From Pseudomonas sp. MTM4 (GTDB lineage Bacteria > Pseudomonadota > Gammaproteobacteria > Pseudomonadales > Pseudomonadaceae): a stretch of DNA of 64,000 bases. The stretch covers positions 4,325,001 through 4,389,000 of the forward strand of contig NZ_CP048411.1 in the NCBI RefSeq assembly GCF_019355055.1, in the 5' to 3' direction. Both the position numbers and the translations under genes were made by a program. Position 1 is the first letter of the stretch; every line of letters begins with the position of its first letter. This document shows positions 29,096-41,819 of this stretch, one piece after another. Below the pieces are notes generated by a model, which had not been told where the DNA came from, ran no database searches, and worked only from the letters and a program-made list of their open reading frames with translations.

Positions 29096-30391
29096 ATGAA
29101 TACCCGTAACAATCTCGATGAGTACCAGAGCACGGTTCGTGCGTTGTCCGACCGCATCGTCGAGGCACAAACCCCTGTGCGGGTGCTCGATGCGGTGAAG
29201 TGGGACGAGAATGTCCGTCAGGGCTTTTTCGCCGCAGGGGGGCGCGAGCTGCCCAAGGTCGATCGCGCCTATTACGAAGGCCGACCACTGGCCTTTGATT
29301 CCAGCGCCAAGAAGGAAGAGTTCCAGAACATCGAGCGTGACATCACCCGTCAGCTGGGTCAGTTCAACCCAGTCGGGCAGATCATGCGCCGCATGTGCAA
29401 GGAATACCGCATGGTGATCCGCATGCTCGAAGCGCGCGGTACTGCCGACTTCGGTCTGATCTCCCAGGAACTCTACGGCGCCGCTTCGGATGCCTTCCAT
29501 GCCGGCGACCCGACCTTATCCGACCTCGGCCTGATGCTTTCCGATTACCTGAATAACATCGCCGACCGGGGTGATCTCAAGGACGAAGCCAAGACGCTGG
29601 ACGCCCCGCAGGCGGTGGAGATGCTACAGCGGCGGTTGGACCTGGTATTCGGCGAAGGCGAGGGCGTGATCCGCGTGTTCGAGTCCGACGGCATCCTCGC
29701 CGATGCCGCAGCCGGCGCCGACTACATCAAGATCCGCAGCGATGCGATGTTCAACGAGCGCGACGTGCGTGCGCTGGAGGTGCACGAAGGCCTTGTGCAT
29801 GTGGGCACCACGCTCAACGGGCAGAACCAGCCGATCTGCACCTTCCTTGCGAAGGGCCCGCCGTCTTCTACCGTGACGCAGGAAGGCCTGGCGATTCTGA
29901 TGGAAGTCATCGCCTTCGCCTCCTACCCGACGCGTCTGCGTAAGCTGACCAACCGCACCCGCGCCATCCACATGGCCGAGGAGGGCGCGGACTTCCTCGA
30001 CGTGTTCGCCTTCTTCCGCGACCAGGGCTACGCCGAGGACGAGTGCTACAGCAACGCCAGCCGGGTTTTCCGCGGCTCGCTCCCGAATGGTTTGCCCTTT
30101 ACCAAGGACCTGTCCTATCTGAAGGGTTTCATCATGATCTACAACTACATTCAGCTTGCGGTGCGCAAAGGTCGGTTGGAGCAGATTCCGCTGTTGTTCT
30201 GCGGCAAGACCACCCTGGAAGACATGCGCACCCTGCGCCAGTTGGTGGACGAGGGCATGGTGGTACCGCCCAAGTACCTGCCTCAGCAGTTCCAAGACTT
30301 GAACGCGCTGTCGGCCTGGATGTGCTTTTCCAACTTCCTCAACCACCTGAGCCTGGACCGGATCGAAGCGGATTACGCCAACATCATCTGA
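29096..30391 (+). CDS. QEGLA-motif protein (DUF1704), putative zinc metallopeptidase
   Basis: 431 residues. Annotated in databases as flavohemoglobin expression-modulating QEGLA motif protein; the name motif is at residues 262-266 (VTQEGLA). Just before it is HEGLVH (His230, Glu231, His235), an HExxxH zinc-protease signature as in the eukaryotic MATCAP tyrosine carboxypeptidases of the same DUF1704 family. The third ligand would be a downstream Glu, perhaps Glu270 in LAILMEV. The family relation suggests a C-terminal-residue carboxypeptidase; the bacterial substrate is unknown. GAGG precedes the start and a strong terminator follows. Confidence 0.88.
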   Translation: MNTRNNLDEYQSTVRALSDRIVEAQTPVRVLDAVKWDENVRQGFFAAGGRELPKVDRAYYEGRPLAFDSSAKKEEFQNIERDITRQLGQFNPVGQIMRRMCKEYRMVIRMLEARGTADFGLISQELYGAASDAFHAGDPTLSDLGLMLSDYLNNIADRGDLKDEAKTLDAPQAVEMLQRRLDLVFGEGEGVIRVFESDGILADAAAGADYIKIRSDAMFNERDVRALEVHEGLVHVGTTLNGQNQPICTFLAKGPPSSTVTQEGLAILMEVIAFASYPTRLRKLTNRTRAIHMAEEGADFLDVFAFFRDQGYAEDECYSNASRVFRGSLPNGLPFTKDLSYLKGFIMIYNYIQLAVRKGRLEQIPLLFCGKTTLEDMRTLRQLVDEGMVVPPKYLPQQFQDLNALSAWMCFSNFLNHLSLDRIEADYANII

Positions 30392-30403
30392 GCGACGCGC
30401 ATG

Positions 30404-30436
30404 AAAAAGCCGGAGCATCTGCTCCGGCTTTTTTGT
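30404..30436 (+). terminator. Terminator after the DUF1704 gene
   Basis: AAAAAGCCGGAGC/GCTCCGGCTTTTTT forms a 12-bp stem with an ATCT loop and T tracts on both strands. It can also stop the convergent dctM transcript at 30451. Confidence 0.93.
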
Positions 30437-30450
30437 TCATCGGCCCTGTA

Positions 30451-31761
30451 TCAAAACAGCGTGTTCGGCAGATAAGTCGCGATCTGGGGAAAAGCCATGA
30501 TCAGGCCCATGCCAATGATGTTGACGATCACGAAAGGTATCACCGACCAGTAGATGTCCTTCATGGTGATGCCGGGCGGGACGATACCTTTGAGGTAGAA
30601 CAGGTTGAACCCGAACGGCGGCGTCATGTAGCCGATTTCCATATTGATCACGAACAGCACGCCGAACCAGATCGGATCGAAGCCGAGCGACGCGATGATC
30701 GGTAGGAACACCGGCAGGGTGATCAGCATGATCCCCACCGGATCGAGCAGCATGCCCATGACGAAGACGATGGCCATCATGAAGATGACGATCGCCCAGC
30801 GCCCGCCCGGCAGATCCATCATCAAGCCTTCGATCAACGACTGCGCACCCATGCCCTGATAGGCCGAGCTGAAGGCGTGGGCCGCGAACAGAATCCACGC
30901 GATCATACCTGTCAGCTTGAAGGTGCGGATGGCCGCTTCCTGGAGCACTGGCCAGTCGAGCTTGCGATACAGCGCCGCGGAGATCAGCGCACCGAGCACG
31001 CCCATCGCCGCCGCCTCGGTCGGTGTGGTCACGCCGCCGATGATCGATCCGAGCACCATTACCACGATCCCGATCGGCAGCAGCACGGCGCGTACGGCAC
31101 GGAATTTTTCCGGCCAGCTGCCGCGTTCTTCCTTTGGCAAGGCGGGTGCGAGGTGGGGTTGCAGGAATGAACGTACCAGCACGTAGGTTACCGTCAGAGC
31201 GACTAGCAGCAGCCCCGGCAGCACGCCGGCAGCGAACATCTTGCCGACCGATTGGCCGCTGATCATGGCGTAGAGGATCATCATGATGCTCGGCGGAATT
31301 AAGATGCCCCAGCCGCCGCCGGTGTTGATGCAACCCAACACCATGCGCTTGTCGTAGCCGCGCTCGAGCATTGCCGGCAGTGCAATGGTGCCCATCGCCA
31401 CCACCGCGGCGCCGCTGATGCCAACCATGGCACCGAACACCGCGCAGATGCCCAGCGTGCCGATCGCCAGCCCGCCGCGCATGCCACCGCACCACAGGTG
31501 CATCATGCGGTAGAGGTCGCGCGCCACGCCTGTTCGTTCCAGCAGCATGGCCATGAAGACGAACAACGGGATGGCCACCAGGGTGAAGCTTTCCATCGTG
31601 CCCCACATCTGCGAGGCGACCATATAGAAGGCGTCTGCGCCCCAGGTGAAGTACAGAAACAGCACCGAGACGCCACCCAGCACGAAGGCCAGCGGCAGAC
31701 CGAGCACGAGGAAAAATATCAGGGTGAGAAAGAACAGCAGCGTCGTGACTTCGATGCTCAT
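30451..31761 (-). CDS. TRAP transporter large membrane permease (DctM family)
   Basis: 436 residues from the ATG at 31761. A longer open frame runs upstream, but the start at 31761 has GGAGGATGCCCA before it and overlaps the dctQ stop as ATGA. About 12 membrane segments are present, with DctM landmarks LVAIPLFVFMAMLLERTG, GGGWGILIPPSIMMILYA, GVTTPTEAAAMGV and MGMLLDPVGIMLI. It is the sodium-driven transport subunit working with DctQ and DctP to import an organic acid. It is the last gene of a minus-strand dctPQM unit. Confidence 0.95.
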   Translation of the reverse strand: MSIEVTTLLFFLTLIFFLVLGLPLAFVLGGVSVLFLYFTWGADAFYMVASQMWGTMESFTLVAIPLFVFMAMLLERTGVARDLYRMMHLWCGGMRGGLAIGTLGICAVFGAMVGISGAAVVAMGTIALPAMLERGYDKRMVLGCINTGGGWGILIPPSIMMILYAMISGQSVGKMFAAGVLPGLLLVALTVTYVLVRSFLQPHLAPALPKEERGSWPEKFRAVRAVLLPIGIVVMVLGSIIGGVTTPTEAAAMGVLGALISAALYRKLDWPVLQEAAIRTFKLTGMIAWILFAAHAFSSAYQGMGAQSLIEGLMMDLPGGRWAIVIFMMAIVFVMGMLLDPVGIMLITLPVFLPIIASLGFDPIWFGVLFVINMEIGYMTPPFGFNLFYLKGIVPPGITMKDIYWSVIPFVIVNIIGMGLIMAFPQIATYLPNTLF

Positions 31762-32297
31762 TGGGCATCCTCCGCGTGCTTGGTGTCGCTGGCCGGTTCG
31801 CGGCCCAGGGCGATGAGGATGTCTTGCAACAGCTTGGCGATGCCCTGCAACAACAGCAGCAACGTACCGAGGGGAATCATGGCCTTGATCGGCCAGATCG
31901 GCGGGTTCCACGCCGAGTAGGAGGTCTCCATGCTCTGGATCGACTCCCATGCCATGGAGCTGCCGAAATACAACAGCGCGGCCATGAACAGGAAGAACAT
32001 GCTGGAGGTGAAAATGTCGATCCAAGCGCGAGTGCGTGGGCCGAACGATGAATACAACAGGTCCACGTTTACGTGGTCACGGTGCACCATCACGTAGCCG
32101 CCCGATAACACCACATAAGCACCGAAGAGCATCTGCCCCAATTCGTTGGTCCAGGAAGTCGGACTCGTGAATAGATAGCGCATGAACACTTCGAGCAGCA
32201 GTAGCGCGAAGATGAGGAAAATCAGGTAGGCCACCCGGCGGCCGATGAATTCGTTGAGCCAGGTGATGCCGTTGATGTAGGCATGGATCAGGCGCAT
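31758..32297 (-). CDS. TRAP transporter small membrane permease (DctQ family)
   Basis: 179 residues from the ATG at 32297 (a TTG at 32315 is an in-frame alternative). Four transmembrane helices are visible; the conserved RYLFTSPTSWTNELGQMLFGAYVVLSGGY marks the DctQ family and is followed by HRDHVNVDLLYS. It forms the integral membrane complex with DctM, whose start codon overlaps its stop. Confidence 0.93.
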   Translation of the reverse strand: MRLIHAYINGITWLNEFIGRRVAYLIFLIFALLLLEVFMRYLFTSPTSWTNELGQMLFGAYVVLSGGYVMVHRDHVNVDLLYSSFGPRTRAWIDIFTSSMFFLFMAALLYFGSSMAWESIQSMETSYSAWNPPIWPIKAMIPLGTLLLLLQGIAKLLQDILIALGREPASDTKHAEDAQ

Positions 32298-32329
32298 GAC
32301 GAGCCCCACGAGCAAGGATTAAGCAAATC

Positions 32330-32362
32330 ATTCGCCCGGCGTGGAAGGCCGCGTCGGGCGAA
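32330..32362 (-). other. Stem-loop in the dctP-dctQ spacer
   Basis: ATTCGCCCGGCG and CGCGTCGGGCGAAT form a long, slightly imperfect stem. No T run follows on the minus strand, so it is more likely an mRNA-stabilising or partial-termination structure. Such a structure would allow more binding protein than permease to be made. Confidence 0.55.
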
Positions 32363-32378
32363 TAATCAGACGAGGGGT

Positions 32379-33416
32379 TTACAGATAACCGAGATCACCA
32401 AGGAAAGACTTGAGCATTTGCAGGGCTTCTGCGGCCTTGTCGCTGCGCTTGCCTTCTTCTTCCCAAGACTTCTGTGCCACCTCTCTCAGGCGCTTCTGCA
32501 CATCGTCAGGCAGCGTGTTGACCTGAACACCCTGTTCGCTGATCGCTTTTCTCAGTGCGATCTGCTCTTGATACAAATACTCGTTGGTGCGGTACCAGAA
32601 CTGCTCGTCTAGGACCTGCTTAACCACTTCCTGATCGCGCGCGGACAGCTTGTCCAGCGCCTTCTGGCTGACGATGATCACATCGGTGCCAGCGATGTTG
32701 AGGGCGGGCTTGACGTGATGTTTCGCCACCTCGTAGAAGCTCATGCTCGCCGCACCTTGCACCGCGCCCCAGTGGGCACCGTCGACCACGCCGGTATCAA
32801 GGGCCGGATACAGCTCGCCGCCTGGCAGGTAAGTTGTCGAAGCGCCGGCATCGTCGAGGAATTTCTGCAACGCGCCGGAGGAGCGAATCTTCAGTTTGGT
32901 GAAATCCTCCCAGCTGTTGATCGGCTTCTTTACCACCATCTCTGTCGGGTAGACCTTGTCGGTCGACCAGTAAACGCCATGCTGAGCCGCTTCTTCACGA
33001 AGCATGTCCTCGAAGCCCATGTGCTTATGGAAGTAGGCGGTTTCCCAGACATTCTGGAAGGCGAAGGGCAGGCCCGAGGCGATGCCGGCGAGGCTGATTT
33101 TGTCTTGCGCGTAGCCCGGCGAAATGGTGCCCATCTGCAGGATGCCGCGGCTGACCGCGTTGAAGGTCTCCTGCGGCTTGAACAGAGCGCCGGACTCGAA
33201 CAGCTGCAACTGCAGACGGCCTTCGGTGCGTCTTTCAATTTCATTTTTCAGACGCACTAGGCTGTCTTCGAAAGAGCTACTGGCGCTCGGCCAATGTGAT
33301 TGAACGCGCCACTTCGTCACGTCTTGCGCCGCAGCCATTTGCGGGAGAGCGATGGCGGCGGCTAACGCCACCAAGCTGGCCTGAAGGAGTTTTCTGAGCA
33401 GGGGCATGGATGTCAT
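32379..33416 (-). CDS. TRAP transporter substrate-binding protein (DctP family)
   Basis: 345 residues with a Sec signal peptide (residues 1-29, MAAAQD). The mature part is a DctP/TAXI-unrelated TRAP receptor of the mannitol/chloroaromatic or 2-oxoacid-related group (KWRVQSHWPSASSSFEDSL, LRSSGALQKFL-like KIRSSGALQKFLDDAG). The conserved arginine that grips the substrate carboxylate should be in KLKIRSSG. The ribosome binding site AGAGGA lies upstream. It is the first gene of dctPQM and divergent from the acyl-CoA dehydrogenase operon, so it may import that pathway's substrate. Confidence 0.92.
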   Translation of the reverse strand: MTSMPLLRKLLQASLVALAAAIALPQMAAAQDVTKWRVQSHWPSASSSFEDSLVRLKNEIERRTEGRLQLQLFESGALFKPQETFNAVSRGILQMGTISPGYAQDKISLAGIASGLPFAFQNVWETAYFHKHMGFEDMLREEAAQHGVYWSTDKVYPTEMVVKKPINSWEDFTKLKIRSSGALQKFLDDAGASTTYLPGGELYPALDTGVVDGAHWGAVQGAASMSFYEVAKHHVKPALNIAGTDVIIVSQKALDKLSARDQEVVKQVLDEQFWYRTNEYLYQEQIALRKAISEQGVQVNTLPDDVQKRLREVAQKSWEEEGKRSDKAAEALQMLKSFLGDLGYL

Positions 33417-33821
33417 AACGCGTCCTCTTGTTGTAATTGGCTGACGGCCATTTGTATTGCGCTTATGTCTTTATGTTCCGCAGAGCAAAACTTGTTTTTA
33501 CAAAAGTAATCGGAAAACTAGCATAGCGCACGGCATTTTCAACCGCTGGCAGAACGCTATCCGTGCACTTTTTGTTTCTGATGATCACCGACCCTGTCGG
33601 CTATCAAGTCTCATGGCACTTCGATATTGACTTTAGACGCCTGTGGTTGTGATTCATCATAATTTTGCTCAATGGAACTAGATTTCGAATTGACGCGTTG
33701 TTTCTGGCATGCCAGCTTCAAAAAGAGACAGGCTGTTGAAAATCAGTCGACAGGATTCGCTATGCGATTCAGTGCGGGAGGCTTTGTCGATCGCAGGCAC
33801 AACAACAAGAAGGAAACGGCG
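33417..33821. other. AT-rich divergent control region between dctP and the ACAD operon
   Basis: 405 bp without a convincing gene. An in-frame extension of the dehydrogenase frame up to 33672 exists but lacks a ribosome binding site. The stretch around 33485-33510 (ACTTGTTTTTACAAAAGT) is a near-palindrome and much more AT-rich than its surroundings. It is a reasonable place for divergent promoters or an operator. No regulator gene is adjacent. Confidence 0.5.
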
Positions 33822-35033
33822 ATGTATGAACTGACCGGTAAAGCGCTACAGCTCCATGAACAGCTCACGGCTTTCATGGACGAACATGTCTATCCCAACG
33901 AGCATCTATTCCACGAGCAGACGGCTTCCGCCGAAAATCGTTGGGCGCCACCGCCGATCCTTGAAGAACTCAAAGCCAAGGCTCGCGCAGAGGGGCTGTG
34001 GAACCTGTTCCTGCCGGAGAGCGAATTCGGTGCCGGGCTGACCAATTTCGAGTACGCCCACCTGTGCGAAATTATGGGTCGCTCGCACGGCGCCGCCGAG
34101 ATATTCAACTGCTCGGCCCCTGACACCGGGAATATGGAGGTGCTGACGCGCTATGGCACGCCGGAGCAGCAGGAACAGTGGCTGAAGCCGCTGCTCAATG
34201 GCGAGATACGTTCCTGCTTCTCCATGACCGAACCTGACGTGGCATCGTCCGATGCCACCAACATCGCGTGCGAGATTCGCCGCGAAGGCGACGAGTACGT
34301 GATCAACGGACACAAGTGGTGGTCGTCCGGCGCGATGGCAACCACCTGCAAGATCGCTATCGTCATGGGCAAGACCGATCCCACTGCCGAGCGCCATCGC
34401 CAGCAGTCGATGATTCTTGTGCCGCTGGACACGCCCGGCGTTGAAATCACGCGGGCGCTCCACGTATTCGGCTACGACCACGCGCCTCATGGGCATGCCG
34501 AAATTCATTACAACAACGTTCGCGTTCCGGCCAGCAACATCCTGCTTGGCGAGGGCCGTGGTTTCGAAATCGCCCAGGGACGTCTCGGCCCAGGCCGCAT
34601 CCACCACTGCATGCGCACCATCGGAGTGGCCGAGCGCGCGCTGCAGGCTATGTGCGAGCGCGTGCATTCCCGCGTGGCCTTCGGCAAGCGGCTGGCCGAC
34701 TTCGACTCGATTCGAAAGGATATCGCCCGTTCTCGCATCGAGATCGAACAGACCCGCCTGCTGACGCTCAAGGCGGCGCGCATGATGGACACCGTCGGCA
34801 ACAAGGTGGCGCGGCAGGAGATCGCCATGATCAAGGCGGCCGCACCGAGCATGGCGCTGCGCGTGCTGGATCGCGCGATTCAGGTACATGGGGCCAAAGG
34901 TGTTTGTCAGGACAGCTTCTTGGCGGCGGCCTGGGCTCACCAACGTACCCTGCGGCTGGCCGACGGCCCGGACGAGGTGCATCTGGACACCATCGCCAAA
35001 CTGGAACTGCAGAACTACTCCAAAAAGCGCTGA
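33822..35033 (+). CDS. Acyl-CoA dehydrogenase, ACAD10/ACAD11-like
   Basis: 403 residues from the ATG at 33822 with AAGGAA upstream. FAD-dependent fold: N-terminal helical domain, a beta-domain with [16 protein letters not shown], and a C-terminal helical domain with [15 protein letters not shown] and [13 protein letters not shown]. Instead of the usual catalytic YEGT the corresponding loop is [14 protein letters not shown], as in the ACAD10/11 branch. In animals ACAD10/11 carries a kinase domain in the same polypeptide and handles 4-hydroxyacyl-CoAs via a phosphorylated intermediate. Here the kinase is a separate gene two positions downstream. It heads a seven-gene operon. Confidence 0.9.
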
Positions 35034-35066
35034 GCCTCCTACAAAACCTACAAGAAGGATGCAGTC

Positions 35067-35834
35067 ATGACCAATCCGTTATTCGATTTGTCCGGAAAGG
35101 TGGCGTTGATCACCGGTTCCACCCGTGGCATTGGTCGCTCCATTGCCGAAGAGGTGGCCCGTTGCGGCGCGAAAGTCGTCATTTCCAGCCGCAAGGCCGA
35201 TGCCTGCGAGGCGGTGGCCGCCGAGCTGAATACCGCGGGCTTCGAAGCCATTGCGGTGCCTTGCCACGTGGGCCGCAAGGAAGACCTGCAGCGGTTGGTC
35301 GACACCACCTTGCAAACCTGGGGGCGCATCGATGTGCTGGTCTGCAACGCCGCGACCAACCCGGTCTATGGTCCGACCAGCGAGCTGACCGATGATGCGT
35401 GGGACAAGATCATGGACACCAACGTCAAGGGCACCTTCTGGTTATCCAATATGGTGCTGCCGCAAATGGCCGAACGTGGCGAGGGCGCGGTAATCATGCT
35501 CTCCAGCATCGCCGGACTGCGAGGCAATACGGTGATCGGCACCTACGGTGTATCCAAGGCGGCCGAAGCGGCGCTGGCGCGCAATCTGGCTGCCGAGTGG
35601 GGTCCGAAGGGCATCCGCGTCAACGCCATCGCGCCGGGGCTGGTGCGTACCGATTTCGCCAAGGCATTGCTCGACGATCCGGAGCGGGTTCGTCGGGCGG
35701 CCGAGAAAACCCCGCTGCGCCGTATCGGCGAGCCGGTGGATATCGCCGGGCTCGCGGTCTTTCTCGCGGCGCCTGCCAGTGCCTATATCACCGGTCAGGT
35801 AATCGTCGCGGATGGCGGCGAAACCGCATGTTGA
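35067..35834 (+). CDS. SDR-family oxidoreductase
   Basis: 255 residues. Classical NAD(P)-binding TGSTRGIG (about 17-24), NAG-equivalent CNAATNP, catalytic Ser in LSSIAG, and YGVSK. The C-terminus ITGQVIVADGGETAC is complete. AAGGA lies 9 bp before the start. Within the operon it should reduce or oxidise a keto/hydroxy group on an acyl-CoA, for example ketoacyl-CoA to hydroxyacyl-CoA before phosphorylation (inference from context). Confidence 0.92.
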   Translation: MTNPLFDLSGKVALITGSTRGIGRSIAEEVARCGAKVVISSRKADACEAVAAELNTAGFEAIAVPCHVGRKEDLQRLVDTTLQTWGRIDVLVCNAATNPVYGPTSELTDDAWDKIMDTNVKGTFWLSNMVLPQMAERGEGAVIMLSSIAGLRGNTVIGTYGVSKAAEAALARNLAAEWGPKGIRVNAIAPGLVRTDFAKALLDDPERVRRAAEKTPLRRIGEPVDIAGLAVFLAAPASAYITGQVIVADGGETAC

Positions 35835-35844
35835 GGAACCGTCG

Positions 35845-36918
35845 ATGAATGCCCCCGAGTTGATCGACGTACTCCCGGCGCATCGTTTCGATGAGGCCGC
35901 GCTAGCTCGGTATCTGCGCCTGCATCTGCCGCAGCTGGGTGATGACGGTCTGAGCATCAAGCAATTCCAGGGCGGCCAGTCCAACCCCACTTACCTGCTG
36001 GAGACGGCGGGGCGCAGATATGTGCTGCGCAAGAAACCACCGGGCCAGGTGCTGCCCTCGGCGCACATGGTTGAACGCGAATACAAGGTGATTCGCGCGT
36101 TGTCCGAACACACCCGCGTGCCTGTGCCGCATGTGCATCTGCTGTGTGAGGATGAAAGCGTCATCGGCACGGCCTTCTATCTGATGGATCACGTCGAGGG
36201 GCGAATCTTCAGTCATCCGGCGCTGGAGGAGCTGGCGGTCCAGGAGCGTCAGGCGATCCACCTGGCGGCTATCGACACCCTGGCCGAGCTGCATCAGGTC
36301 GACGTCGAGGCGGTGGGGCTTGGCGACTTCGGCAAGGCCCAAGGCTATTTCGCCCGTCAGGTGAAGCGTTGGTCCGGCCAGTATCAGGCCTCCCGCACGG
36401 GCGACATGCCGGCGATGGAGCGGTTGATGCAGTGGCTTCCCGAACAGGTGCTGCAGCGCGACGAGTGCGCCATCGCCCATGGCGACTACCGTCTCGGTAA
36501 CCTGATCTTCGAACCTGGAGCACCAAAAGTCGCAGCGATTCTCGACTGGGAACTGTCCACCATCGGCCATCCGCTCGCGGATCTCGCTTATTTCTGCTTG
36601 CCCTATCACCTGCCAGCCGGTGTGGATGGCTTGCGTGGACTGGTCGGCACCGACCTACAGGCGCAAGGTATTCCGTCTGAGCAGCAAGTACTGGAACGTT
36701 ATTGCCAACAAAGCGGACGCGCCGATGTCGCGCAGTGGCATGTCTTCGTGGCGTTTTCGCTGTTCCGTCTCGCGGCGATTCTGCAAGGCGTTTACGCCCG
36801 TGCGCTGCAGGGCAATGCCAGCAATGCCGATGCGCTGCAGGTCGGCCAGCGCGCCGGTTTGCTTGCAGAAGCTGGCTGGCGCATCGCCCAGCGCGGCGAC
36901 AGGGGAGAATCGGTATGA
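35845..36918 (+). CDS. Aminoglycoside-phosphotransferase-like kinase (ACAD10/11 kinase type)
   Basis: 357 residues from the ATG at 35845 (GAGGAA upstream). The APH fold has the Brenner motif HGDYRLGN (His212, Asp214, Asn219) and the metal-binding ILDWELSTIGHP (Asp234, Glu236). The N-terminal nucleotide-binding part FQGGQSNPTYLL and YVLRKKPPGQVLPSAH is typical of the ACAD10/11 kinase branch and of LvaA, which phosphorylate hydroxyacyl-CoA. An antibiotic-resistance role is unlikely given the setting. Its stop overlaps the surE start (ATGA, 36915-36918). Confidence 0.92.
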   Translation: MNAPELIDVLPAHRFDEAALARYLRLHLPQLGDDGLSIKQFQGGQSNPTYLLETAGRRYVLRKKPPGQVLPSAHMVEREYKVIRALSEHTRVPVPHVHLLCEDESVIGTAFYLMDHVEGRIFSHPALEELAVQERQAIHLAAIDTLAELHQVDVEAVGLGDFGKAQGYFARQVKRWSGQYQASRTGDMPAMERLMQWLPEQVLQRDECAIAHGDYRLGNLIFEPGAPKVAAILDWELSTIGHPLADLAYFCLPYHLPAGVDGLRGLVGTDLQAQGIPSEQQVLERYCQQSGRADVAQWHVFVAFSLFRLAAILQGVYARALQGNASNADALQVGQRAGLLAEAGWRIAQRGDRGESV

Positions 36919-37718
36919 GCGGTCCATTGCTGCGCCGCGTCCTGCTGACCAACGACGACGGCATCGCTGCGCCGGGGCTGGCCTTGCTCGAACGGATCGC
37001 TGCGCAACTGGCTGAGGAAGTCTGGGTGGTGGCCCCCGAGCACGACCAGAGCGGCACCGGCCAAGGCATCTCTGTGCATTCGCCGCTGCGGGTGTATCGC
37101 CACGGCGAGCGGCGCTTCGCCGTTTCCGGTACGCCGTCCGACTGCGTGATGTTCGCCATGGCCGAGTGGCTGCAGGATTCGCCGCCCGATCTGGTGCTCT
37201 CTGGCGTCAACAGCGGGGCGAATATTGGCGACTCGGTGCCTTACTCAGGAACCATCGGTGCGGTGCTTAGCGCTGATCTGCTGGGGTTGCCGGCCATCGG
37301 CCTGAGCCAGGCCTTTCTTGATCGCACAGATATCGATTGGTCCTGTGTCAAAACCTACGCTGAAACCACGATCCGCGAACTCTGGATGCGCCGCGCGGAA
37401 GGCGGCTGTTGCTGGAACGTGAATTTTCCCGCCTGCTCGGCCGACGCGGTCAGCCATATGCGGATGACCCAACAGTCGCGCGGCTCAATTACCAAGCCGC
37501 GCCTGCAGGCCGGCCGGGACGGTCGAGGTCTGCCGTATTGGTGGCTTGGCTTCGAGCATTCCTCCTCGCACATCGTTGCGCCTGAGGCGGACGTCACGGC
37601 GCTGCGCGAGAAACGCATCGCCATCACACCCTTGCGCGACACCCAGGGCTGGCTCGACTGGGGCGAAGAACGGGCCATGGCCGAACTGGCCTCTAATATG
37701 GATTCAGGAGTTCTGTAA
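36915..37718 (+). CDS. surE: SurE-family phosphatase/nucleotidase in a catabolic operon
   Basis: 267 residues from the ATG at 36915, which overlaps the kinase stop. SurE motifs: metal-binding LTNDDGIAAPGL (Asp14, Asp15), APEHDQSGTG, and LSGVNSGANIGDSVPYSGTIGA. SurE enzymes hydrolyse nucleoside monophosphates and other phosphate esters with Mn2+. The usual surE sits beside pcm/nlpD/rpoS; this copy lies between a kinase and a CoA ligase, with both junctions overlapping, so it is probably a paralogue dedicated to this pathway. A phosphatase beside the kinase recalls the HAD domain fused in ACAD10. Confidence 0.9.
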   Translation: MSGPLLRRVLLTNDDGIAAPGLALLERIAAQLAEEVWVVAPEHDQSGTGQGISVHSPLRVYRHGERRFAVSGTPSDCVMFAMAEWLQDSPPDLVLSGVNSGANIGDSVPYSGTIGAVLSADLLGLPAIGLSQAFLDRTDIDWSCVKTYAETTIRELWMRRAEGGCCWNVNFPACSADAVSHMRMTQQSRGSITKPRLQAGRDGRGLPYWWLGFEHSSSHIVAPEADVTALREKRIAITPLRDTQGWLDWGEERAMAELASNMDSGVL

Positions 37719-39397
37719 TGTTCACTCGTCATCACGCAGTCTGGCCCGAGGATCTGCCCAAACACCTGACGGTGCCGGAGACCAGCCTGTTCGCCAATCT
37801 GGAGATCTCCGCCCGGCGCTTCCCGGACAAGACGGCCATCGTCTATTACGACACCCTGATTACCTACACCGAACTGCTGCGTGAAGTAGAGGCGCTGGCC
37901 GGCTACCTGCAGAACCTGGGTGTCGCCAAGGGTAATCGTGTCCTGCTGTATATGCAGAACTCGCCGCAGTTCACCATCGCCTACTACGCGATTCTTCGTG
38001 CGGACGCGGTGGTGGTGCCGGTCAATCCGATGAACCACACCGCCGAGCTTGAACACTACCTGCACGATACCGGCGCGGCGGTCTGCCTTTGCGGACAGGA
38101 GCTGACCGGTTTCATTTCATCACTGGTTGGCACTGCACAGCTGCGCCAGGTGATCGTCGCTGCCTATTCGGACTATATCCGGCAGCCCACCGACCTCGCG
38201 CTGCCGGCCGAGGTCCAGGCCGCGGCGATCGCACCGGATTTCGCCGGCGGCATCGGCTGGCGCGATGCCTTGGATGCGGGCCATACGCCCGGTCCGCACA
38301 CCGCCGGCCCGGACGATCTGTGCGTGTTCCCCTACAGCTCCGGCACTACCGGCGCGCCGAAGGGCTGCATGCACACCCATCGCTCGGCGATGGCGACCAT
38401 CATTCATCGCGTGGTCTGGACCAACAGCACCAGCGAATCGGTGATTCTCGCGACGTTGCCGTATTTTCACGTCACCGGTATGCAGGGCGCCATGAGCGGG
38501 CCGATCTACAACGGCGGCACCGCGGTTATCATGACCCGCTGGGATCGCAAGGTGGCGGCGAAACTGATCGAGCGCCACGCGGTAACCGGCTGGGTCAATA
38601 TCGCCACCATGGCCATCGACTTTCTCGCCGATCCGGATCTCGAACAGTACGACCTGTCCAGCCTGGTCAGCGTCGGCGGCGGCGGGGCGGCGATGCCCAA
38701 GGCGGTAGAGGAGAAGCTGCACCGGCTCACCGGCCTACGCTATATCGAGGGCTATGGTCTGTCCGAAACCATTGCCGCCACCCATATCAACCCGGTGGCG
38801 AAACCCAAGGCGCAGTGCCTCGGCATTCCGGTATTCGACGTGGATAGCCGGGTTATCGACCTGACTACGCAACGTGAACTCGGCCCCAACGAGGTAGGTG
38901 AGATCGTCAGTCACGGTCCGCAGGTGTTCGTCGGTTACTGGAACCGGCCAGAAGAGACCGAACGTGCCTTCATCGAGCTGGACGGTAAGCGTTTCTTCCG
39001 TACCGGGGACATGGGCTACTACGACGAGGACGGCTATTTTTTTATGGTCGATCGCGTTAAGCGCATGATCAACGCGTCGGGTTTCAAGGTCTGGCCGTCA
39101 GAGGTCGAAAGCTTGATGTACCGTCATCCGGCGATCCAGGAATGTTGCGTCATCTCGCGCCCCGACCCGAAGCGCGGCGAGACGGTGAAGGCCTGCGTTG
39201 TGCTGCGTGACGGTCAGGCCGGGCTGGTCAGCGAACAGGACGTCATCGACTGGTGCAAGGCGGAGATGGCGGCCTACAAGGCACCGGTATATGTCGAGTT
39301 CGTCGCGTCGCTGCCTCGCTCGTCCACCGGCAAGCTGATGTGGCGCGCCTTGCAGGAAGAAGAAAATCGCAAGCACGCCAGTGCCCAGGAGGCCTGA
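37718..39397 (+). CDS. AMP-binding acyl-CoA ligase
   Basis: 559 residues, an ANL-family adenylating enzyme. ATP-binding P-loop YSSGTTGAPKGCMHTH, A5 motif EGYGLSET, A7 YRTGDMGYYDEDGYFFMVDR-like FRTGDMGYYDEDGYF, A8 hinge RVKRMINASGFKVWPSEVE, and the catalytic Lys in SSTGKLMWR. It activates a carboxylic acid, of medium or long chain or hydroxylated, to its CoA thioester. The start codon overlaps the surE stop (TAATG), indicating translational coupling. It would be the entry reaction for the acid brought in by the TRAP transporter. Confidence 0.93.
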   Translation: MFTRHHAVWPEDLPKHLTVPETSLFANLEISARRFPDKTAIVYYDTLITYTELLREVEALAGYLQNLGVAKGNRVLLYMQNSPQFTIAYYAILRADAVVVPVNPMNHTAELEHYLHDTGAAVCLCGQELTGFISSLVGTAQLRQVIVAAYSDYIRQPTDLALPAEVQAAAIAPDFAGGIGWRDALDAGHTPGPHTAGPDDLCVFPYSSGTTGAPKGCMHTHRSAMATIIHRVVWTNSTSESVILATLPYFHVTGMQGAMSGPIYNGGTAVIMTRWDRKVAAKLIERHAVTGWVNIATMAIDFLADPDLEQYDLSSLVSVGGGGAAMPKAVEEKLHRLTGLRYIEGYGLSETIAATHINPVAKPKAQCLGIPVFDVDSRVIDLTTQRELGPNEVGEIVSHGPQVFVGYWNRPEETERAFIELDGKRFFRTGDMGYYDEDGYFFMVDRVKRMINASGFKVWPSEVESLMYRHPAIQECCVISRPDPKRGETVKACVVLRDGQAGLVSEQDVIDWCKAEMAAYKAPVYVEFVASLPRSSTGKLMWRALQEEENRKHASAQEA

Positions 39398-39455
39398 CCA
39401 AACAGCCCCGGCTGCGAGTCATGCCTATGCGCTTTCGAATCCAATGGAGAAGACT

Positions 39456-40202
39456 ATGCAAGATCCAACTTCGACGAATCGGGACGCGGAATGGCAGGTT
39501 CGCAAGGACCTTGCCGCGGCCTATCGGCTGGTGGCGCACTTCGGCTGGGACGATCTCGTTTTCACTCATCTGTCTGCGCGCGTGCCGGGGCCAGAACATC
39601 ATTTCCTGATCAACCCGTACGGCCTGCTGTTTCAGGAAATCACCGCCTCGTCGCTGGTGAAGGTCGACAGCGACGGACAGATCGTCCAGAGCGGCAGCCT
39701 GCACCGGGTCAATCCGGCTGGCTTCACCATCCACAGCGCTATCCATATGGGCCGTGAGGATGCCAGCGCGGTTATGCATTTGCATGCAGCCGACGGCACG
39801 GCGGTCTCGGCGCACCGCGATGGCCTACTGCCGCTGAGCCAGACTGCGATGCTTTGCGTAGATCACATCAGCTACCACGACTACGAGGGTGTGGCACTGG
39901 ACCTGAGCGAGCGCGAACGGCTGATCCGCGATCTTGGCGACAAGCAGATGATGATCCTGCGCAACCATGGCGTGCTTACGGCGGGGAGCACCGTCGCCGA
40001 AGCCTTCACTTACCTGTATTTCCTGATGAAGGCTTGCGAGATTCAGGTGCGTGCACAATCTTGCGGGCCGACCTATCAGCCATCCGCCGCTGCCATCGAG
40101 ACCACTCGCCAGCAATCGGCCGAACTGGGCAAAGCAGCCAAGCTGACCTGGCCGGCGCTGTTGCGCCTGCTTGAAGCCAACGGTCACGTCTACGCGATAT
40201 AG
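39456..40202 (+). CDS. Class II aldolase/adducin-domain protein
   Basis: 248 residues from the ATG at 39456, chosen because GGAGA lies five bases before it; an in-frame ATG at 39444 overlaps that box. The class II aldolase fold has zinc-ligand histidines in MHLHAADG and in LRNHGVLTAG, with FTHLSARVPGPEHHFLINPYG near the N-terminus. Members include fuculose-phosphate aldolase and many of unknown substrate. Within the operon it may cleave or rearrange a hydroxyacid intermediate. Confidence 0.9.
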   Translation: MQDPTSTNRDAEWQVRKDLAAAYRLVAHFGWDDLVFTHLSARVPGPEHHFLINPYGLLFQEITASSLVKVDSDGQIVQSGSLHRVNPAGFTIHSAIHMGREDASAVMHLHAADGTAVSAHRDGLLPLSQTAMLCVDHISYHDYEGVALDLSERERLIRDLGDKQMMILRNHGVLTAGSTVAEAFTYLYFLMKACEIQVRAQSCGPTYQPSAAAIETTRQQSAELGKAAKLTWPALLRLLEANGHVYAI

Positions 40203-40251
40203 CATCTGCGGCAGATGGCACCCTTTCCAATAATTTTGAGGCAGAGCGTCC

Positions 40252-41181
40252 GTGAAAATCCTCTTCGTTGCCGCAGATCCCAAGCCCGAGCGCTGGACCA
40301 ACCTGATTAAGCAGCATCTTCCAGACGCTGAGATTCAGGTTTGGCATCCGGATAGCCCGGGTTACGGTGCCGACTACGCCATCGTTTGGCATCCGCCGAC
40401 GGCGTTGTTCGACAAGGAACCGCAGCTCAAGGCCGTCTTCAATCTCGGCGCCGGGGTGGATGCGCTGGTGCGCGTGCCGAACCTGCCGCGCGACATTCCC
40501 GTGGTGCGCCTGGAAGACGCCGGCATGTCGGTGCAGATGGCCGAATACGTTGCGTATCACGTCATTGGCATCAGCCGCGACATGGACGCCTACCGCCAGC
40601 AGCAAGCCGCAGGGCAGTGGAAACTGCGCCGGCCGATCGAGCGCAGCGAATGGCCGGTTGGCGTGCTCGGGCTCGGCCATATCGGCCAGCGCGTCGCCCG
40701 CACCTTGGCCGGGCTGGACTATCCCGTGTGCGGCTGGGCGCGCTCCAAGTACGACATCGAGGGCGTGCGCAGCTTCGCCGGCGAGGCCGAACTGGACAGC
40801 TTTCTCGGTGAAACCCGTGTGATGATCAATACGCTGCCGCTGACCGACAGTACCCGCGACTTAATCGACTACTCGCTGCTCGCGAAGCTGAGGCCTGATG
40901 CGGTGGTGATCAACGTCGGTCGCGGCGAGCATCTGGTGGATCAGGATCTTTGCCGCGCCATCGAAGAAGGCCGCGTTGCCCGCGCGGTGCTCGACGTGTT
41001 CCGTGAAGAACCGCTACCGACGACACATCCGTTCTGGCACATGCCGCAGGTGACCATCACCCCGCATGTCTCGGCGCGGACCCTGCGCGAAGCGACCATT
41101 GCGCAGATCGCCAGCAAAATCGCTGCGCTGGAGCAGGGGCAGGCCATCAGCGGTGTCATCGATATTCAGCGCGGTTACTGA
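40252..41181 (+). CDS. ghrA: Glyoxylate/hydroxypyruvate reductase A-like 2-hydroxyacid dehydrogenase
   Basis: 309 residues from a GTG start. D-2-hydroxyacid dehydrogenase fold: nucleotide-binding GVLGLGHIGQRVAR (from about residue 140), INVGRGEHLVD, DVFREEPLP and the catalytic His in ITPHVSART. It closely follows GhrA in length and motifs. It reduces glyoxylate or hydroxypyruvate with NADPH. It is the last gene of the operon, 49 bp after the aldolase. A 2-oxoacid reductase beside an aldolase suggests that a small 2-oxoacid or glyoxylate is a pathway product (inference). Confidence 0.9.
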   Translation: MKILFVAADPKPERWTNLIKQHLPDAEIQVWHPDSPGYGADYAIVWHPPTALFDKEPQLKAVFNLGAGVDALVRVPNLPRDIPVVRLEDAGMSVQMAEYVAYHVIGISRDMDAYRQQQAAGQWKLRRPIERSEWPVGVLGLGHIGQRVARTLAGLDYPVCGWARSKYDIEGVRSFAGEAELDSFLGETRVMINTLPLTDSTRDLIDYSLLAKLRPDAVVINVGRGEHLVDQDLCRAIEEGRVARAVLDVFREEPLPTTHPFWHMPQVTITPHVSARTLREATIAQIASKIAALEQGQAISGVIDIQRGY

Positions 41182-41291
41182 GCGAGCGGCAGACGGACCT
41201 GCCAAGACAGCGCTCTGCGCCCGATCGGTGCTTTCACCCAAGGCTGGGAATTTTGCGACAATGCCGCCTCTTTGATCAGGCGAACCCGTCC

Positions 41292-41630
41292 ATGTCCGAA
41301 CGTAACCCCATCCCGCTGATCCTCACCGCGATCGGCAGCGTCATTGGTACCGTCGCGGTGCTGTCTTACTATGGCTACGTGCATATGGCCAAGCCGGAGG
41401 ACGCCCTGCTGCTGGCCGACTACACCATGCTCAAGACTATTCCCGGCGAAGACTATCGCGTCTCGCTGAAGCCGGCGGCTCAGGTGGCCGAATGCATCGA
41501 CGGCGTTCTGGTGCTTTTCGACACCGAGCAGAAGGGGCTGACCGGTGTGCTGGTAGACAACCGCAAGCGTGCGATCCGCTGCATGGGGCAGCAGGTGCCG
41601 ATGAGCGAGGCACCGGCAGCCCAGCAGTGA
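41292..41630 (+). CDS. Conserved hypothetical protein with one membrane segment
   Basis: 112 residues from the ATG at 41292; the frame opens at 41253 without a ribosome binding site. One transmembrane helix (ILTAIGSVIGTVAVLSYYGYV, about 9-30) is followed by a soluble domain of about 80 residues (MAKPEDALLLADYTML, AECIDGVLVLFD). I do not recognise a named family. The helix near the N-terminus suggests an inner-membrane protein with its C-terminal part in the periplasm. Confidence 0.75.
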   Translation: MSERNPIPLILTAIGSVIGTVAVLSYYGYVHMAKPEDALLLADYTMLKTIPGEDYRVSLKPAAQVAECIDGVLVLFDTEQKGLTGVLVDNRKRAIRCMGQQVPMSEAPAAQQ

Positions 41631-41819
41631 TGCTTGGCGATGCGTTCGGTAACGTCTTGAGCGAACAGTGCCAGCTTCGAAACAGGTGACGAGTCGCTTG
41701 AGCCCGGCTACATATATGTATGAGCGGCACACTTGGAAGGCAATCTGGGCGCATTGGCCGCACACGGCTTAGCGCTTGATGGGGAGTGGGGCGAAGCTAA
41801 GACGTATCAGCAGCCTGAA

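Follow-up and report, generated by a model that had tools for sequence, protein, structure and literature searches.

A SurE-family phosphatase gene in a putative phosphorylation-dependent hydroxyacid operon of Pseudomonas sp. MTM4

The window analysed here is a 64,000-nucleotide stretch of the Pseudomonas sp. MTM4 genome (NZ_CP048411.1, positions 4,325,001 to 4,389,000 of the forward strand), which is a single contig of 4.69 Mb. Positions 30,451 to 41,181 of the window hold a seven-gene operon in which a SurE-family phosphatase gene lies between the genes for an APH-fold kinase and an acyl-CoA ligase. Judging from the sequence, we consider it fairly probable that this operon degrades a 4-hydroxy or 4-oxo acid via a phosphorylated acyl-CoA, with SurE serving as a dedicated repair phosphatase tied to the kinase.

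Gene content and conservation of the locus

The original prediction described a tripartite ATP-independent periplasmic (TRAP) importer divergent from an operon encoding an acyl-CoA dehydrogenase (ACAD), a short-chain dehydrogenase/reductase (SDR), an APH kinase, SurE, a ligase, a class II aldolase and a GhrA-like enzyme. Gene calls and Pfam searches bear out all ten genes: the minus-strand TRAP genes (DctM, DctQ and DctP) diverge from the seven-gene plus-strand operon, and the Pfam families of the encoded proteins exceed their gathering scores.

30451..31761, minus strand: DctM, TRAP large permease (PF06808, 1.4e-87; TIGR00786 over cut-off)
31758..32315, minus strand: DctQ, TRAP small permease, with a 4-base overlap with DctM (PF04290, 2.6e-29)
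32379..33416, minus strand: DctP, TRAP solute-binding protein (PF03480, 1.3e-44; nearest solved structures 2zzv, 4yzz/4yic, 2hzk and 7e9y)
33417..33821, no strand: divergent intergenic region, where a hotdog thioesterase gene of relatives has been cleanly lost (alignment of five loci)
33822..35033, plus strand: ACAD11/LvaC-type ACAD, proposed 4-phosphoacyl-CoA eliminase (ACAD11 match; residues R254, H262, R265, D381)
35067..35834, plus strand: SDR oxidoreductase, proposed 4-oxo/4-hydroxyacyl-CoA dehydrogenase by analogy with LvaD (PF13561, 1.9e-66)
35845..36918, plus strand: APH-fold kinase of the ACAD10/11 kind, proposed 4-hydroxyacyl-CoA kinase (PF01636, 3.4e-51; D214, N219, R171)
36915..37718, plus strand: SurE-family phosphatase, proposed repair phosphatase (PF01975, 9.5e-55; TIGR00087 over cut-off)
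37718..39397, plus strand: AMP-forming acyl-CoA ligase (NF006181, 883 bits against a cut-off of 705)
39444 or 39456..40202, plus strand: class II aldolase/adducin family protein (NF005451, 363 against 207 bits; 3ocr, 1.1e-73)
40252..41181, plus strand: GhrA-like 2-hydroxyacid dehydrogenase (PF02826, 9.7e-48; NF012013 GhrA, 275.6 bits, below the cut-off of 403)

Genes of the plus-strand operon are separated by fewer than 60 bases or overlap. Both SurE junctions overlap, as predicted, by 4 bases with the upstream kinase gene and 1 base with the downstream ligase gene. Pfam matches to DctP, DctQ and DctM make the transporter set complete, which the prediction had only implied. Promoter and terminator scans gave no excess over shuffled sequence (3 against 3.2 and 8 against 7.9).

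Co-occurrence of the gene set in related genomes, a check proposed with the prediction, was found: Stutzerimonas retains the unit, as does Marinobacter, where its flanks are rearranged. The host genome is close to Stutzerimonas, its operon kinase being 94% identical to that of S. stutzeri 28a22. Presence was counted per genus at set identity cut-offs, with thioesterase genes counted over the whole locus. All nine Stutzerimonas loci carry the ACAD, SDR, SurE, ligase, DctP, aldolase and GhrA-like genes, and eight carry a hotdog thioesterase gene. Among 42 Marinobacter loci (36 of them full length), SurE was found in 37, the ligase in 41, DctP in 32, the aldolase in 29, the GhrA-like gene in 4 and the thioesterase in 33; DctM at 70% identity or more occurs in 28/42 Marinobacter and 9/9 Stutzerimonas loci. 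Where a Marinobacter aldolase gene is present it lies on the opposite strand, and from this and the presence counts we regard the aldolase and GhrA-like genes as neighbours, not fixed operon members. Several Stutzerimonas loci, including L007 (15436-17001), encode an extra acyl-CoA synthetase after the GhrA-like gene on the opposite strand. This gene is absent from the window; many Marinobacter loci have a homologue close to the TRAP genes.

Predicted chemistry and substrate

The best solved matches of the ACAD are the ACAD11 structures 8v3u (5.2e-147), 8v3v and 2wbi, followed by the putative ACAD 4hr3 (1e-135); the next match reaches only 3.8e-39. In the alignment, ACAD11 residues R626, R631, H634, R637 and D753 (numbered as in the paper; the printed chain counts one lower) correspond to R254, R259, H262, R265 and D381 of the window ACAD, which carries the HCMR motif, that is, the phosphate-binding R/H/R set, and the catalytic Asp as reported for ACAD10/11 and LvaC. 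R626, H634 and R637 are described as contacting the 4-phosphate in simulations, as mattering for activity and as absent from conventional ACADs (PMC12440821). The kinase matches 3dxp (8e-102) and ACAD11 8v3v (1.2e-86), and it keeps the ACAD11 catalytic residues D220 and N225 and substrate residue R176 as D214, N219 and R171. For R86, a further substrate residue in the ACAD11 paper, the printed ACAD11 chain has no Arg at that place. By sequence and active-site residues, both enzymes are related to animal ACAD11, in agreement with the prediction. Because both proteins match ACAD11 and keep its active-site residues, phosphorylation and then phosphate elimination on a 4-hydroxyacyl-CoA is a route well supported by homology.

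Only in 2024-2025 were animal ACAD10 and ACAD11 recognised as the enzymes that break down 4-hydroxyacids via a phosphorylated acyl-CoA (PMC11342911, PMC12440821), and bacterial orthologues are described as able to stand in for ACAD10 domains (PMC11342911). The window and these animal proteins have in common a kinase, a phosphate-eliminating ACAD and the active-site residues, but in the window the two enzymes are separate polypeptides; ACAD10 also has a HAD phosphatase-fold domain. The levulinate (lva) operon of P. putida likewise encodes a ligase, an SDR, an APH kinase and an ACAD of the same kinds (LvaA, LvaC and LvaE compared by description), and a phosphorylated 4-acyl-CoA would be expected here as well. 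SurE, the TRAP importer, the class II aldolase and the GhrA-like reductase are the window's extras relative to lva. Conversely, no DUF6285 protein, the family to which we take LvaB to belong, was found in the host genome, in line with the predicted absence of an LvaB-like subunit. Nor was an LvaR-like regulator recognised by eye beside the operon among the open reading frames (ORFs) of positions 29,096 to 41,765, not every one of which was family-searched.

In the scheme we propose, the ligase would activate a 4-hydroxy (or 4-oxo) acid to its acyl-CoA, the SDR would interconvert the 4-oxo and 4-hydroxy forms, the kinase would phosphorylate the 4-hydroxyl, and the ACAD11-type enzyme would remove the phosphate by elimination, yielding a 2-enoyl-CoA that enters beta-oxidation. 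A phosphoacyl-CoA that loses its CoA, perhaps with help from a nearby thioesterase in most close relatives, would strand a phospho-hydroxyacid, a dead end unless dephosphorylated. SurE may dephosphorylate such stranded phospho-hydroxyacids, or those unsuited to the ACAD. Once set free, the hydroxyacid could be activated again by the ligase, and thioesterase, phosphatase and ligase would then form a loop that restores hydroxyacyl-CoA. The sequence itself shows which genes are present, their families and active-site residues, their conservation and the repeated pairing of kinase with phosphatase; we infer all substrates, which way the SDR works and a repair function for SurE. The TRAP transporter, aldolase and GhrA-like enzyme appear to be conserved neighbours, and the scheme assigns them no part.

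Clues to substrate length point in two directions: the ligase subfamily would suggest longer acids and the DctP relatives small ones. The ligase scores above the threshold for a subfamily of long-chain-fatty-acid ligases (NF006181), which makes the short substrate envisaged in the prediction uncertain. Among the nearest solved relatives of DctP, only 7e9y (TTHA0766) is named as lactate-binding; others we take to be oxo-acid binders. We name no ligand for DctP itself, whose identity to solved relatives is low and in which the Glu-Trp pair of 2hzk reads His-Trp. The prediction had also suggested a cleavage releasing glyoxylate or a 2-oxoacid, an idea we abandoned for lack of support: the best solved matches of the aldolase are 3ocr and adducin, the GhrA-like enzyme falls short of the curated GhrA cut-off, and the Marinobacter aldolase is on the other strand.

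The long-chain ligase subfamily would also fit a scheme in which a different hydroxyl is the target of the kinase and ACAD, or their substrate is a branched or cyclic acid, and the operon does not serve 4-hydroxyacid catabolism. In one Marinobacter locus searched for protein families (L042, 13528-17150), genes for a MaoC-like protein, a class II aldolase and paired PimD/PimC-like dehydrogenases form a single run, a hint as to how the acyl chain is processed. Against such a scheme, cells with ACAD10 are described as phosphorylating 4- but not 5- or 6-hydroxyhexanoate (PMC11342911), and the phosphate-binding residues are conserved in the window ACAD. We consider this alternative unlikely.

Association of SurE with the kinase

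One scan for kinase relatives gave 80 named genome loci. SurE is the gene directly after the kinase in 58 of them by gene calls, and tblastn located it elsewhere in five more (63/80). Because SurE follows the kinase in 58 of the 80 loci, we do not regard the arrangement as chance. The 4-base overlap recurs in 40 of the 58 loci with SurE next to the kinase, including 8/9 from Stutzerimonas and 27/36 from Marinobacter. No SurE was found in 12 alphaproteobacterial or unplaced loci (L070, L073-L075, L077-L081 and L084-L086). A search of 293 Pseudomonadales genomes identified a kinase relative at E 1e-70 in 103, with at least 64% identity in 13, and an operon-kind SurE (E 1e-50) in 16. SurE adjoins the kinase on the same strand in all 13 genomes with the closer kinase, which span three family codes. 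Among the other 90, with a more distant kinase, an operon-kind SurE occurs in one (G513), ∼25 kb from a 48% kinase.

The window SurE (PF01975) contains the DD motif (D14, D15), the metal-ligand Asn (N99) and S46, which is presumably also a metal ligand. Roles for the DD motif and the Asn are described for the family (PMC8475336). With at most one exception, the catalytic residues are common to 20 operon-type SurEs (14 from the searched genomes and 6 from the named loci) and 9 other SurEs, a comparison from which the genome's own other SurE dropped out. The other copies, 5′/3′-nucleotidases that we take to be housekeeping enzymes, belong to the same family, but the operon type is a separate gene and 19 other positions consistently distinguish the two sets. 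We had considered the operon SurE as the genome's only one, and rejected this: a second SurE gene lies at G000 4619608. The operon suggests what an orphan SurE paralogue might do. Elsewhere in the window's family, a related SurE (47%; L229, 5980-6777) occurs without the kinase among efflux-like and two-component-like neighbours, as judged by eye.

Unrelated phosphatases beside the kinase family

The host genome encodes a second kinase (G000 475694-476647), 35% identical to the operon kinase. Its locus (G000:C1 ∼474855-478044; L257 5856-9045, minus strand) encodes a histidine phosphatase, an SCP2-domain protein, the APH kinase and an SDR on one strand. Four genomes of the same family (L258, L259, L261 and L262) have the same gene order, in which the 94-104 amino acid protein is named by likeness to that of the host genome. 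No ACAD or ligase homologue is among the neighbours shown at L257 and these same-order loci. In 9 of 12 second-kinase loci (the genome's own and 11 fetched), a histidine phosphatase is on the same strand at most two genes away; the figure is 9/10 at 46% or greater identity to the genome's own kinase. Genome G193 combines one kinase with SurE and another with a histidine phosphatase.

These loci bear on the proposal that SurE is a nucleotidase removing the AMP made by the ligase or the 3′-phosphate of CoA species. The SurE family is described as comprising 5′- and 3′-nucleotidases (PMC8475336), and surE is immediately upstream of the ligase gene. The histidine phosphatase of the second-kinase loci, however, has no ligase homologue among its neighbours shown, and destruction of AMP would be wasteful. 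We find the nucleotidase proposal decidedly improbable.

Pairing of the kinase family with phosphatases was quantified in 98 of the 123 kinase places from 398 Pseudomonadota genomes, with genes called. Defining a kinase operon as a same-strand chain with gaps of at most 150 bases gave 302 operonic genes, with 773 other genes within ∼6 kb. A histidine-phosphatase motif occurs in 13/302 operonic genes and 2/773 others (one-sided Fisher p = 3e-6), and SurE in 5/302 and 0/773 (p = 0.0017), p-values that overstate the enrichment because the loci are related. Strict HAD and Nudix motifs were found in no gene, operonic or otherwise, near the 98 kinases, though weaker HAD proteins could escape. By profile, 14/98 loci have an operonic histidine phosphatase, in two sequence clusters, and four more have one nearby outside the chain; the profile was built from operonic members and favours them, which the motif count does not. 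Altogether, an operonic SurE or histidine phosphatase occurs in 19/98 loci. Among the neighbourhoods of 16 plasmid kinases, those from Sulfitobacter, Azoarcus and Deinococcus have a histidine phosphatase annotated directly beside the kinase, and ten have no annotated phosphatase; two (L004 and L005) are barely or not annotated, and in L005 gene calls place a histidine phosphatase beside the kinase.

A kinase tree of 133 rows, built by a quick method, places all 16 SurE rows in a single clade of 23 rows and none of the 17 histidine-phosphatase rows there. Phosphatase labels require 12 changes on the tree, compared with 31.5 on shuffling. The distribution suggests one recruitment of SurE with losses and at least two of histidine phosphatases, whose two clusters are in separate clades, although the method cannot tell gain from loss. 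Were SurE a passenger gene with no link to the pathway, its loss in some Marinobacter and its membership of a common family (matches in 10/14 control genomes) would be natural. Its confinement to one kinase clade, the adjacency in 13/13 genomes, drawn from three family codes within one order, and the conserved overlap make this very improbable.

A levulinate cluster in P. citronellolis LA18T, as described for that one strain, likewise lacks LvaB and has a phosphatase gene in the kinase cluster, encoding a histidine phosphatase in place of the SurE fold of the window (PMC6692424). There its removal of phosphate from 4-phosphovaleryl-CoA is put forward as a suggestion only (PMC6692424). Such a cluster would also be expected if the phosphatase were a partner or brake of the kinase, taking the place of P. 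putida LvaB or the ACAD10 HAD domain, with catalysis secondary. The HAD domain is described as restraining its kinase with negligible phosphatase activity (PMC11342911); the tight kinase-SurE overlap and the absence of DUF6285 from the genome fit this as well. However, SurE retains its catalytic residues, unlike the incomplete motif of the ACAD10 HAD domain, and one contact surface common to two unrelated folds is unlikely. We regard a partner or brake role as rather unlikely.

The repair reading of SurE is extended by the hotdog thioesterase gene that most Stutzerimonas and Marinobacter loci carry, directly before the ACAD gene where gene order was listed; its Pfam 4HBT match in L007 is barely over the gathering score (21.1 against 20.6). 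In an alignment of five loci, the gene is present in L007, L010 and L016 and absent, with intact flanks, from the window and L008. Comparison of window positions 33417-33821 with L007 7036-7977 identifies a clean loss that S. stutzeri 28a39 (L008) has in common with the window strain. In the 98-locus sample, a same-strand thioesterase occurs in ten loci and an operonic phosphatase in 19, with both in seven (two-sided Fisher p = 3e-4, among related loci); the phosphatase is SurE in four of the seven and a histidine phosphatase in three. We tentatively propose, as a possibility short of an expectation, that hydroxyacid catabolism by phosphorylation needs a proofreading phosphatase, that at least three unrelated folds (SurE, histidine phosphatase and the ACAD10 HAD domain) have been recruited to one kinase family, and that with thioesterase and ligase they form a rescue loop.

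Several findings weigh against SurE as a dedicated repair enzyme in this pathway, in addition to the overstated enrichment. SurE is missing in 4/42 Marinobacter loci (L035, L040, L050 and L051) and is therefore dispensable, and two genomes of the window's family have a related SurE (47 to 49%) with no such kinase at the threshold. Of the sampled kinase operons, 79/98 have neither SurE nor a histidine phosphatase, and in 36/98 loci no HCMR-type ACAD lies within 6 kb. Finally, the thioesterase gene is deleted in the window strain itself.

A literature search in an open library returned no report of SurE with this kinase and ACAD, nor of recurring unrelated phosphatases; among the papers listed, those bearing on a phosphatase with this kinase were PMC6692424 and, for the HAD domain, PMC11342911. 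The role of the ACAD10 HAD domain is unsettled, and the window SurE keeps its catalytic residues where that domain is described as having negligible phosphatase activity (PMC11342911). The bacterial operon is a simple, testable model for a phosphatase fold accompanying this kinase. Two further loci add minor variants: on a Rhodococcus plasmid, a SurE is annotated ∼3 kb from a kinase-ACAD pair on the opposite strand (L094, 176-961), and in L176 a DUF6285 protein (2180-2557) adjoins an ORF (1164-2180) that is APH kinase-like by eye, a candidate LvaB-like pair.

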